From Nevskia sp. (GTDB lineage Bacteria > Pseudomonadota > Gammaproteobacteria > Nevskiales > Nevskiaceae): 49,350 bases of DNA. The notes beneath the pieces were generated by a model that saw only the letters and a list, made by a program, of their open reading frames with translations, was not told the origin of the DNA and did no database searches. The DNA is taken from positions 1 to 49,350 of the forward strand of contig NZ_JAHFRY010000014.1 of the NCBI RefSeq assembly GCF_023266035.1, read 5' to 3'. Below are positions 19,751 through 41,100 of this stretch, one piece after another; within the stretch, counting starts at the first letter, position 1, and the number at the start of each line of letters is the position of its first letter. The translations under genes and the position numbers were made by a program.

Positions 19751-20902
19751 TTAGCGGAGCAGGCTCAACACGCTCTGCGGAGCCGAATTGGCCTGCGACA
19801 GGATTGCAGTTCCGGCCTGCTGCAGGATCTGGCCGCGAGTCAGCGCGGCGGTTTCCTTGGCGAAATCGGCATCCTGGATGCGGCTGCGTGAAGCCGACAG
19901 ATTCTCCGACGTCGAAGCGATGTTCGAGACCACCGAGCTGAAGCGGTTCTGGATCGCACCGAGGTTGGCACGAGCCGAATTGATCTGGCCAAGTGCCGAA
20001 TCGATCTGCTTGATCGCCAGCGAGGAACCGGCGTAGCTGGACAGATCCAGCGAGGTCAGACCGGTGGTGGTGCTCGCCGTGCCGGTGACGCCGGTGGCGC
20101 CATCGAAGCCGGTGGCCGTGCCGTCATCGGTGCCGCCGACGGTGATGGTGGACTCCGAGCTCAGCACGATCTTGCCGGTCGAGGCATCGAAGGCGGCATT
20201 GACGCCAGTGGTGGTCGAGCTGTTGTTGATCGCATCGACAACCTGGCCGACGCGCTGCTGCGAAGTGCCGGCAGCGCCGATCTGGGTGCTGATGTCGGTG
20301 CCGTTGATGGTCAGCGTGCCGGCCACCGGGGCGGTCAGGACGCTGATGCCGGAGACGGCGCTGGACTGCGCACTGGCCGAAGTCACCGAGCCGAGCGCCG
20401 CCGTGTTGGCGTCGACCAGCGAGCTGACGGTGATCGTTTCGCCGGCATTGGCACCGACCTGGAACACCGCCGAAGTGAAGCTGCCGTCGATCAGCGACAC
20501 GCCGTTGAACTTGGTCTGGTTGGCAACGCGGTCGACTTCGCTGAGCAGCTGCGCGGCTTCGCCCTGCAGTGCGGCACGGTCGGTGGCGCTGTTCGAGGCA
20601 TTCGCCGACTGCACGGCCAGTTCACGGACGCGCTGCAGGTTGTTGGTGACTTCGCCCAGCGCGCCTTCAGCGGTCTGCGCCAGCGAGATGCCGTCATTGG
20701 CATTGCGCGAGGCGACATCGAGGCCGCGAATCTGCGAGGTGAAGCGGTCCGCGATGGCGAGGCCGGCGGCATCGTCCTTGGCGCTGTTGATGCGCAGGCC
20801 CGAAGACAGGCGCTGCAGGGAGGTGTTCAGGGCGCCCTGAGACGACGACAGATTGCGCTGCGCGTTCAGAGACGCCACGTTGGTGTTGATGATTGCGGCC
20901 AT
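19751..20902 (-). CDS. fliC: Flagellin FliC
   Basis: This 383-residue flagellin forms the filament. The conserved D0/D1 ends are clear: [40 protein letters not shown] and [12 protein letters not shown] at the N terminus; [20 protein letters not shown] and [14 protein letters not shown] at the C terminus. The middle (about residues 150-290) is Ala/Thr/Ser-rich and surface-exposed. The start at 20902 is chosen over the ATG six bases upstream because AGGAG then has a spacing of eight. Only one flagellin gene is present in the window. A sigma28 promoter at 21019-21045 gives a leader of roughly 105 bases. Confidence 0.96.
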
Positions 20903-21018
20903 GGTCATTGCTCCTGGTGAGGTGGGTCTCGGCAGGTCTGATCCGTGTCGAGGGTGCTGCGAGAAAGCGGGAAAAGATGGGACCTTGCTTCGGTGCTGCC
21001 TTGCTGCTCTTGGAGGAT

Positions 21019-21243: not shown

Positions 21244-21270
21244 GTCATTCCCGCGCAGGCGGGAATCCAG
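21244..21270 (+). repeat. 27-base palindromic repeat, copy 1
   Basis: The element begins GTC and ends CCAG; arms ATTCCCGC and GCGGGAAT form an eight-base stem with loop GCAG. The core fits the ATTCCC-N8-GGGAAT pattern known as dRS3 in Neisseria (recalled). It forms an inverted pair with the copy at 21297-21323, separated by 26 bases, a REPIN-like layout. Confidence 0.8.
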
Positions 21271-21296
21271 TCCTGATGCGGGGCGCTACGGCCAAA

Positions 21297-21323
21297 CTGG
21301 ATGCCCGCCTGCGCGGGCATGAC
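21297..21323 (-). repeat. 27-base palindromic repeat, copy 2 (inverted)
   Basis: Read on the minus strand the copy has the same framework as copy 1, with arms ATGCCCGC and GCGGGCAT around loop GCAG. Relative to copy 1 a T-A pair has become G-C on both arms at once, so pairing is kept. Confidence 0.8.
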
Positions 21324-39529: not shown

Positions 39530-39889
39530 ATGAATTACGTCGACGGTTTTGTCATCCCAGTTCCGAAAGCCAAGCTGGACGCCTATCGCGAACTGGCCGA
39601 AAAAGCAGCCGCGATCCTGCGCGAACTCGGCGCGCTGGAAGTCCGCGAATGCGTCGCCGATGACGTCAAGGCCGGCGTCCACACCTCGTTCCCGCAAAGC
39701 GTGCTGCTCAAGGACGACGAGGTGGTGGTGTTCTCGTGGATCGTCTTCGAATCACGGGAAGCGCGCGACAAGATCAACGCCGCATTCATGGCCGACCCGC
39801 GCATGGCCAGCATGATGGATCCCAGCAGCCATCCGTTCGACAGCAAGCGGATGTTCTTTGGCGGCTTCAAGGTGCTGGTTGCGGCTTGA
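39530..39889 (+). CDS. DUF1428 (YbaA-like) protein
   Basis: The 119-residue protein matches the DUF1428 family: MNYVDGFVIPVPKAKLDAYR at the start, REARDKINAAFMADPRM in the middle and a final FDSKRMFFGGFKVLV. These small alpha/beta (ferredoxin-fold) proteins have no established function. GAGAGGA precedes the ATG by six bases. It follows rlmKL by 128 bases in the same direction. The palindromic repeat at 39915 begins 25 bases after its stop. Confidence 0.9.
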   Translation: MNYVDGFVIPVPKAKLDAYRELAEKAAAILRELGALEVRECVADDVKAGVHTSFPQSVLLKDDEVVVFSWIVFESREARDKINAAFMADPRMASMMDPSSHPFDSKRMFFGGFKVLVAA

Positions 39890-39914: not shown

Positions 39915-39941
39915 GTCATACCGGCGAAAGCCGGTATCCAG
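39915..39941 (+). repeat. 27-base palindromic repeat, copy 3
   Basis: Same GTC...CCAG framework as the copies near fliC, with arms ATACCGGC and GCCGGTAT around loop GAAA (a GNRA tetraloop). It is the left border of the GIY-YIG gene and is exactly identical, inverted, to the copy at 40330-40356. Confidence 0.85.
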
Positions 39942-39962
39942 AGTCGGAAAGGACCTCGGCAG

Positions 39963-40256
39963 CTAAGAAGCGATCACCTCGTAAAGATCGCGCCACTGCG
40001 GATTGCTGCTTTCAATCAACTCCAGCTTCCAGGCCCGCTTCCATTCCTTGATCTGCTTTTCGCGTGTGATCGCCGAAATCGAATCAGGATGCGGCTCGAA
40101 CCACACCAGCCGATGCACCTGATAGCGCTTGGTGAATCCCGCTACCTCATCATTGCGGTGCTGCCAGATGCGCAGAACGAGGTTCGACGTGACGCCGACG
40201 TAAAGCGTGCCATTACGTTCGCTGGCCAGAATGTAAACGTGGAAATGTTTTTCCAT
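39963..40256 (-). CDS. GIY-YIG domain nuclease, single domain
   Basis: The 97-residue product is a stand-alone GIY-YIG endonuclease of the UPF0213/YhbQ-like type. The two strands are HVYIL (residues 6-10) and LYVGVTSN (18-25); catalytic R29 sits in LVLRIWQH and E66 in ITREKQIKEWKR. All key residues are present, so it could be active. A GGAGG box precedes its ATG. The gene is enclosed by a perfectly matching inverted pair of 27-base palindromes (39915-39941 and 40330-40356), with a relic of a dcd gene end beyond the right one. That arrangement resembles a small mobile unit in which the nuclease might act on the repeat hairpins. Confidence 0.9.
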   Translation of the reverse strand: MEKHFHVYILASERNGTLYVGVTSNLVLRIWQHRNDEVAGFTKRYQVHRLVWFEPHPDSISAITREKQIKEWKRAWKLELIESSNPQWRDLYEVIAS

Positions 40257-40329
40257 TCAGCGCCTCCAGGCTGCACTTCGCCGCGGCCCACTACCGGAGG
40301 CATGACATTCGTCCGCATTCTTCCTGGCC

Positions 40330-40356
40330 CTGGATACCGGCTTTCGCCGGTATGAC
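40330..40356 (-). repeat. 27-base palindromic repeat, copy 4 (inverted)
   Basis: Reverse complement of copy 3 with no mismatch in 27 bases. It forms the right border of the GIY-YIG unit and lies 18 bases from the dcd-tail relic. Confidence 0.85.
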
Positions 40357-40374: not shown

Positions 40375-40440
40375 TCAAGTCTTCGGCGGGGCCACACCCG
40401 TCTGCCCCTGGTACTTGCCGCCACGGTGCAGACCGTCGCT
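40375..40440 (-). pseudogene. Duplicated 3' tail of dcd (relic)
   Basis: Read on the minus strand these 66 bases encode a C-terminal peptide with [10 protein letters not shown], then PKT and a stop. They match the true dcd end at 40534-40590 in 14 of the last 17 residues, with [11 protein letters not shown] conserved. No start or body of the gene is present. It lies downstream of intact dcd in the same orientation, directly beside the repeat-bordered GIY-YIG gene. It is either a partial tandem duplication or what remained when an incoming dcd replaced a resident copy. Confidence 0.75.
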
Positions 40441-40533: not shown

Positions 40534-41100
40534 TCAGGTCTTCGGCAGGGTCACGCCGGTCTGCCCCTGATACTTGCCACCCCGATCGCCATAAGACGTC
40601 TCGCAGATCTCATCGCTCTCGAAGAACAGCATCTGCGCCACGCCTTCGTTGGCGTAGATCTTCGCCGGCAGGGTCGTGGTGTTCGAGAACTCCAAGGTCA
40701 CGTGGCCTTCCCATTCGGGTTCGAGCGGGGTGACGTTGACAATGATCCCGCAGCGCGCATAGGTGCTCTTGCCGAGGCAGATGACCAGGGTCGAACGCGG
40801 GATGCGGAAGTACTCGACGGTGCGCGCCAGCGCGAACGAGTTCGGCGGGATGATGCAGACGTCGGACTTCAGATCGATGAAGCTGCGCTCGTCGAAGTTC
40901 TTCGGATCAACGATCGTCGAATTGATGTTGGTGAAGATCTTGAATTCGTCCGCGCAGCGCACGTCGTAGCCATAGCTCGAGGTGCCGTAGCTGACGATCT
41001 TGTTGCCGTTGGCGGTCCGAATCTGGCCGGGTTCGAACGGCTCGATCATCCGGTCGCTTGCGGCCATGCGCTTGATCCACTTGTCTGACTTGATGCTCAT
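40534..41100 (-). CDS. dcd: dCTP deaminase
   Basis: Dcd converts dCTP to dUTP and ammonia, the main route to dTTP in many Gram-negatives. The 188-residue product shows [13 protein letters not shown] at the start, [15 protein letters not shown], the catalytic region [20 protein letters not shown] (with the conserved Glu) and [14 protein letters not shown]. It ends in [15 protein letters not shown], the tail copied in the relic at 40375-40440. It lies downstream of mrp and the anchored protein on the same strand (gap 41 bases to the next gene), probably one transcription unit. Confidence 0.96.

Follow-up and report, generated by a model that had tools for sequence, protein, structure and literature searches.

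In a 49,350-nucleotide stretch of DNA from Nevskia sp. (contig NZ_JAHFRY010000014.1, positions 1 to 49,350; hereafter the window), a small gene for a GIY-YIG nuclease lies between two inverted copies of one hairpin repeat. Does the enzyme act on the repeats that surround it? REP/REPIN hairpins in many bacteria are spread by RAYT (Y1) transposases, and the original prediction for this locus was that a nuclease of a different class recognises, cuts or spreads the hairpins here. We think it highly likely that the gene encodes an Ssn-type site-specific nuclease, which targets the hairpin that flanks it and recurs through the genome, and which reads a base of the stem via residue 71 (with residue 73). 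The arrangement of gene and hairpins is real, more frequent than chance would give, and biologically meaningful.

The nuclease gene and its flanking hairpins

The features of the window that concern us are the following.

39963..40256, minus strand: GIY-YIG nuclease gene (Ssn-like), encoding P0001, 97 aa, E71/K73 type
39915..39941, plus strand: CGTC-1 type hairpin, stem CCGGC, on the 3' side of the GIY-YIG gene; tag reads TGTC
40330..40356, minus strand: identical inverted CCGGC hairpin on the 5' side of the GIY-YIG gene; tag CGTC, outward
39942..40329, no strand: cassette interior, starting AGAGTC inside the left hairpin
40534..41100, minus strand: dCTP deaminase gene (dcd), neighbour on one side of the cassette
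39530..39889, plus strand: DUF1428 gene, neighbour on the other side
21245..21322, no strand: sister-type (CCCGC) hairpin dimer, gene-less, upstream of the flagellin gene

Both hairpins around the gene are identical copies of the 27-mer GTCATACCGGCGAAAGCCGGTATCCAG, one on each strand; the perfect inverted pair that had been predicted is present, and its coordinates and its distances of 21 and 73 bases from the open reading frame hold as well. Searching the window for the 23-base core with up to three mismatches returned the two gene-flanking sites only, and 100 shuffled sequences returned none. As single-stranded DNA the hairpin folds into an 8-bp stem with a 4-nt loop at -8.7 kcal/mol, a stability reached by none of 200 shuffles. 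A repeat of the same family had also been noted near fliC. It is real and encloses no gene, but it belongs to the sister stem type, CCCGC rather than CCGGC; this dimer is upstream of the flagellin gene (19751-20908, minus strand), some 340 bases away from it. The 3' end of dcd has a 51-base duplicate, 84% identical, at 40375-40425, between dcd and the hairpin and about 110 bases past the gene. A similar duplicated dcd end is seen in the relative G018 (locus L190), where no hairpin follows dcd.

P0001 matches PF01541 with 60.1 bits (cut-off 22.6). GIY-YIG enzymes use Tyr, Arg and Glu residues in catalysis, and the catalytic residues are intact, as had been claimed: Y8, Y19, R29, E66 and N85 are invariant in 61 sequences. 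A structure model of P0001, computed from an alignment (A1) containing 60 of the 80 relatives introduced below, has a pLDDT of 95.2 and shows residues 71-73 linking the E66 helix to the one that follows it, from where they might contact the hairpin stem. In a profile search of solved structures the UPF0213 pair 1zg2 and 1ywl were the sole sequences matched (E up to 0.01). The nearest solved folds to the model are UPF0213 and Slx1, a branched-DNA nuclease, with about 23-29% identity in the fold alignments. A phmmer search against solved structures matched only WD-40 repeat proteins, which were set aside as repeated weak matches. No NCBIfam model matches P0001, and a phage origin of the gene was discarded, there being no PHROG match.

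The 4.5 Mb genome contains 36 copies of the hairpin (pattern TCATNCCNGCGNANGCNGGNATCC, at most one mismatch), with none found for the reversed control. Of these, 30 are arranged as 15 pairs whose tags point outwards: in 14 dimers the spacer is 29-52 bases long, and in the pair that encloses the gene it is 392; the opposed copies of a dimer start 53-76 bases apart. Two stem types occur in this genome, CCGGC and CCCGC. With a CGTC or TGTC tag, an 8-bp stem starting AT, a 4-nt loop, a CCA tail and arrangement in dimers, the hairpins are of the kind described as CGTC-1 REPs by Di Nocera et al. 2013 (PMC3733652), a group that includes dRS3 of Neisseria and, according to the available text of that survey, apparently has no dedicated transposase. 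Among the literature matches listed, titles and abstract openings gave none that joins GIY-YIG enzymes to REPs or CGTC repeats.

Association of the gene with the hairpins

We found 229 relatives of P0001 in genome contigs from many phyla and took the best 80, of which 79 had enough flanking sequence. Perfect AT-stem hairpins were sought within 200 bases of the gene, and intervals of equal size from other parts of these 80 loci served as control. Among these best 80 of 229 relatives, hairpins lay on both sides of the gene at 37 of 79 loci, compared with 0.02% of random positions, and on at least one side at 64 of 79 (control mean, 2.4%); the control maxima over 200 rounds were 1.25% and 7.5%, respectively. 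The comparison with chance that had been proposed as a check thus comes out clearly in favour of the association. The consensus of the flanking hairpins is CGTCATNCC...GNAR...GGNATCCAG.

A definition based on the tag was applied to a discovery set of 99 loci, made up of the same 80 and 19 from genomes of the order. It finds a hairpin at 78 of the 99 and hairpins on both sides at 54. The nearest hairpin is in plus orientation in 55 of 65 cases upstream and in minus orientation in 48 of 67 downstream. Where both sides are occupied, the two hairpins carry the same inner triplet at 49 of 54 loci (shuffled mean 20, highest 32).

The association extends to whole genomes. A relative of P0001 (E < 1e-18) is present in 25 of 85 genomes of the order, and hairpins were counted in all of them with the pattern TCATNCCN10GGNATCCA. 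At least ten hairpins were found in 18 of the 25 genomes with the gene versus 9 of the 60 without, the medians being 30 and 0. Hairpin number therefore follows the gene (p about 1e-8; 5 of 20000 in a within-genus permutation). The nine gene-less genomes are exceptions, and two of them have about 60 hairpins. A distribution of the hairpins independent of the gene had been named as grounds for abandoning the prediction; the 85 genomes and the flanks of the relatives show otherwise.

A protein residue that varies with a stem base

We write the tagged arm of the hairpin as AT-N-CC-X, where X is the sixth base. In the 99 discovery proteins, mutual information with the inner stem triplet is highest for residue 71 (z = 18) and residue 73 (z = 13.9), the next column reaching 3.8. 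This covariation set omits L125-L128, which are from the same genomes as L044, L045, L046 and L047 (two were checked, at 100%), L142 (stop), L147 (split match), the weak matches L149-L153, and second and third copies without a locus. At the discovery loci, X=G goes with Glu at position 71 in 38 cases (Asn 4, Gly 2, and Ala, His and Gln 1 each), X=C with Lys in 23 and Arg in 1, X=A with Ala in 3, and X=T with Lys in 3 and Arg in 1. A rule pairing C or T with Lys/Arg, and G or A with another residue, describes 78 of 78 loci.

The prediction K/R-C and E-G was set down before new loci were taken; its extension to A and T came later. The held-out set of 133 loci consists of 129 of the places listed by the search (all but the 18 lowest), none near-identical to a discovery locus, and four copies from the window's own order (L329-L332). 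Tagged hairpins were found at 49 of the 133; those with a 4-nt loop and an ATCC tail, 31 in number, are called canonical, and the other 18 non-canonical. The code held in 30 of the 31 canonical loci, and in 26 of 27 when L329 and L330 (orthologues of discovery loci) are removed together with L229 and L231 (overlapping L210 and L213); since the canonical loci include only three with X=G and three with X=A, these figures weigh mostly on the pairing of Lys/Arg with C. It held in 13 of the 18 non-canonical loci, and all five failures combine X=G with R71, a combination seen in 5 of the 10 non-canonical loci with X=G. With a wider hairpin definition there are 53 held-out loci, of which 10 break the rule; H71 accompanies X=C in five of the ten, and four of these five have loops of 7-8 nt. 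Under the strict definition, 84 of 135 held-out loci have no tagged hairpin within 250 bases; this count includes L333-L335, which repeat discovery genomes and were removed from the 133-locus test. Divergent hairpin families accompany Lys/Pro or His/Pro at positions 71/73, for example at L399 (9-bp stem) and at L215, L240, L258 and L282 (7-8 nt loops); perhaps they follow a second code.

On the best tree of 109 loci, calculated without columns 70-74, 19 changes are counted for K/R71 and 18 for X as a pyrimidine. Few of these changes fall on well-supported branches, leaving one to four independent pairs, because the protein is short. As enzyme and hairpin sequence change together, the enzyme very probably recognises these repeats.

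Stem types within genomes

The two stem types were also counted genome by genome in the order. All genomes carrying the gene except G032 and G035, 23 of 25, were covered by this comparison in trans, and 16 of them could be entered. CCGGC hairpins outnumber CCCGC hairpins in five of the six genomes with only E71 enzymes and in none of the ten with only K/R71 enzymes (p = 0.0014), all ten of the latter being mostly CCCGC. Outside the comparison stand G020 (Q71, 92 CCGGC and 0 CCCGC hairpins), G024, G028, G012, G034, G048 and G058; the last has S71 with 30 CCCGC hairpins, against the code. G024 and G028 carry both enzyme types, each copy flanked by its own stem: the three copies in G024 are one E71 with CCGGC flanks and two K71 with CCCGC flanks.

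The single exception in the comparison is the window's own genome (G000), which has 9 CCGGC and 18 CCCGC hairpins despite E71. A K71 copy occupies a site common to G013 and G024. In G000 the corresponding site (C129) has flanks 95-96% identical to those of G013, and only 33 bases lie where G013 has 433. These 33 bases contain GGGATGACGG, which resembles the outer end of a hairpin and hints that a cassette has been lost there. The absence of a K71-type cassette at C129 may account for the excess of CCCGC hairpins in G000. The site of the window's cassette between dcd and the DUF1428 gene is likewise variable: it is occupied in G000 and G024, and the two genes adjoin without a cassette in G013 and G027.

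Cassettes and gene-less dimers

The gene and its two outward-tagged inverted hairpins together form a cassette of about 440 bp. Its architecture matches that of the gene-less dimers of 77-100 bp, and so, in the two genomes compared, do its inner ends. Inside its hairpins, the G013 cassette reads AGTT...AACT; among 18 dimers compared, 16 start with AGTT and 16 end with AACT. The G000 cassette starts AGAGTC, as do three of the four CCGGC dimers of G000. The same start occurs in 2 of 19 CCGGC dimers of G019, G014, G020 and G015 among the matches listed. The CCCGC dimers of G000 resemble those of G013, 8 of 10 having AGTT. Because cassettes and dimers have inner ends in common, the dimers look like gene-less cassettes.

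Other arrangements were also seen. At L384 (G010:C10:1918-2538), the GIY-YIG gene lies between two complete dimers and not within one split dimer. At L398 (870-1487 of an Azospirillum lipoferum plasmid record), two members of an iron-sulphur gene cluster, sufB and sufC, are set apart by the nuclease gene and the dimers to its left and right.

A homologue in Neisseria

A search of plasmid records identified a gonococcal homologue in two records of chromosome size, 66% identical to P0001 over residues 7-92. The records (PLSDB NZ_CP119142.1 and NZ_CP119140.1) are 2.17 Mb sequences of Neisseria gonorrhoeae that are filed as plasmids. In one of the two, the enzyme is of the K71/N73 type and its gene has CCCGC hairpins to either side, in agreement with the code; 12 hairpins lie in the 50 kb containing the gene against 1 in a distant 50 kb.

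Neisseria is reported to possess Ssn, a site-specific single-strand nuclease of the GIY-YIG superfamily that has a repeated sequence as its recognition site and influences transformation (Nat Commun, 2025); many homologues of differing specificity are said to have been found in the same study. The gonococcal locus is presumably the published Ssn, and we assume that P0001 is to be filed with the Ssn site-specific single-strand nucleases. The window's gene has the cognate repeat around it and throughout its genome, and its homology to the Ssn family runs through the gonococcal protein.

Discussion

In the mechanism that we propose, the enzyme would read a central stem base with the stretch that directly follows the catalytic glutamate, residue 71 (with 73) being matched to X mostly as E-G, K/R-C or T, and A/S-A. 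Recognition of the hairpin by the GIY-YIG enzyme is well supported by the sequence comparisons. By analogy with Ssn, the enzyme probably also cuts hairpin DNA, with a likely preference for the single-stranded form. Such cutting could limit or shape the exchange of repeat-carrying DNA, move the repeats, or both.

Two other readings would take the hairpins away from the nuclease. In one, they owe their spread to a RAYT (Y1) transposase, with the GIY-YIG gene as passenger or antagonist. A RAYT-like gene is indeed present in the window's genome, PF01797 is also matched in 22 of the 25 genomes carrying the GIY-YIG gene, and the dimer geometry described above (copies 53-76 bases apart) resembles that of REPINs. 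A RAYT gene matching these repeats had been named beforehand as a finding that would speak against the nuclease; the gene in the genome has no hairpin at its own locus. By one pattern, a hairpin lies within about 1.5 kb at 20 of 25 GIY-YIG gene loci and at 0 of 30 RAYT loci (the 30 best, one per genome, of 63 genomes with a match). PF01797 occurs in 63 of the 85 genomes, at least ten hairpins being found in 23 of the 63 with it and 4 of the 22 without, and across the 85 genomes RAYT is not associated with hairpin number (p = 0.15; 2680 of 20000 permutations). Accordingly, we rejected RAYT as the partner of the hairpins. A RAYT would moreover leave the residue 71 code unexplained, and in its available text the 2013 survey reports CGTC units around none of the tyrosine transposase genes (PMC3733652). 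We consider this reading very unlikely. Even less credible is that the hairpins are merely terminators or mRNA-stabilising elements which flank a small gene by chance. They are intergenic and have stable stems, but neither flanking far above control nor a protein residue that covaries with a base of the stem is to be expected on this reading.

Recognition by the nuclease leaves room for different functions. A guard of natural transformation, which would cut single-stranded DNA at the hairpins on its entry and thereby limit or channel exchange between relatives with the same repeat, is quite possible, though we would not put it at even odds. The Neisseria Ssn study reportedly supports it, and the same layout is found for the gonococcal homologue, whose genus is naturally competent; homologues also in metagenome-assembled genomes of Chloroflexota, Planctomycetes and others may count against it. 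Somewhat more doubtful is a REP-like mobile system in which the GIY-YIG cassette is the autonomous parent and the gene-less dimers are internally deleted miniatures, multiplied by nuclease action and repair. This extends our preferred explanation rather than opposing it: a mobile cassette with miniature dimers, each nuclease kept matched to its own hairpin family by the 71/73-versus-X code, is a tentative addition and on the whole improbable. The ends that cassettes share with cognate dimers beyond the hairpin (G013, G000), presence or absence at two sites (433 versus 33 bases; dcd-DUF1428) and the gene lodged between sufB and sufC in Azospirillum would fit mobility. On the other side, genomes of the genus hold one to three diverged copies, with no recent near-identical copies seen there, and no target-site duplication was noticed. 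The cassette may instead be a dimer that a gene entered, given the genes between two full dimers in G010 and A. lipoferum, and its absences may be deletions, the gap at C129 having kept its GGGATGACGG. The original prediction of a GIY-YIG enzyme as the partner of the hairpins is strongly supported by the flanks, the genome-wide association and the code on new loci; its further proposal, that the nuclease may spread the hairpins, is compatible with the likeness of cassettes and dimers.

The CGTC REPs make up a large group of palindromic repeats in bacteria, to which the 2013 survey, in the text available, assigned no enzyme (PMC3733652). Here they are linked, across many phyla, with a single small nuclease family. 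If the mobile reading is true, a mobile GIY-YIG system would supply the missing enzyme. The recognition code is specific and easily tested; it should help to explain how the repeats are kept or spread, and to choose nucleases by specificity.

Comparison with known systems

The REPIN/RAYT system, with its GTAG REPs and Y1 transposase, resembles the present one in having inverted hairpin pairs with one matching enzyme gene between them. It differs in that the enzyme here is a GIY-YIG nuclease, the tag is mostly CGTC or TGTC rather than GTAG, and hairpins show no association with RAYT, whose genes they flank at 0 of 30 loci. CGTC-1 REPs, including dRS3, agree with the window's hairpins in tag, 8-bp AT stem, 4-nt loop, CCA tail and a prevalence of opposed dimers; the available text of PMC3733652 names no enzyme for them. 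UPF0213 (1zg2, 1ywl) and Slx1 share the GIY-YIG fold with P0001 at about 23-29% identity.

The closest parallel is Ssn of Neisseria, for which the idea of a repeat-specific GIY-YIG enzyme has reportedly been published already. The pairing of enzyme and repeat thus seems to be known in outline from Neisseria; subject to the content of the Ssn paper, what is added here is the residue code, the link to the CGTC REP class and the relation between cassettes and dimers. Ssn and P0001 are both small, stand-alone GIY-YIG proteins, each linked to a repeat of the same hairpin class that recurs across the genome. Unlike the window, with E71/K73 and a CCGGC stem, Neisseria combines K71/N73 with CCCGC.
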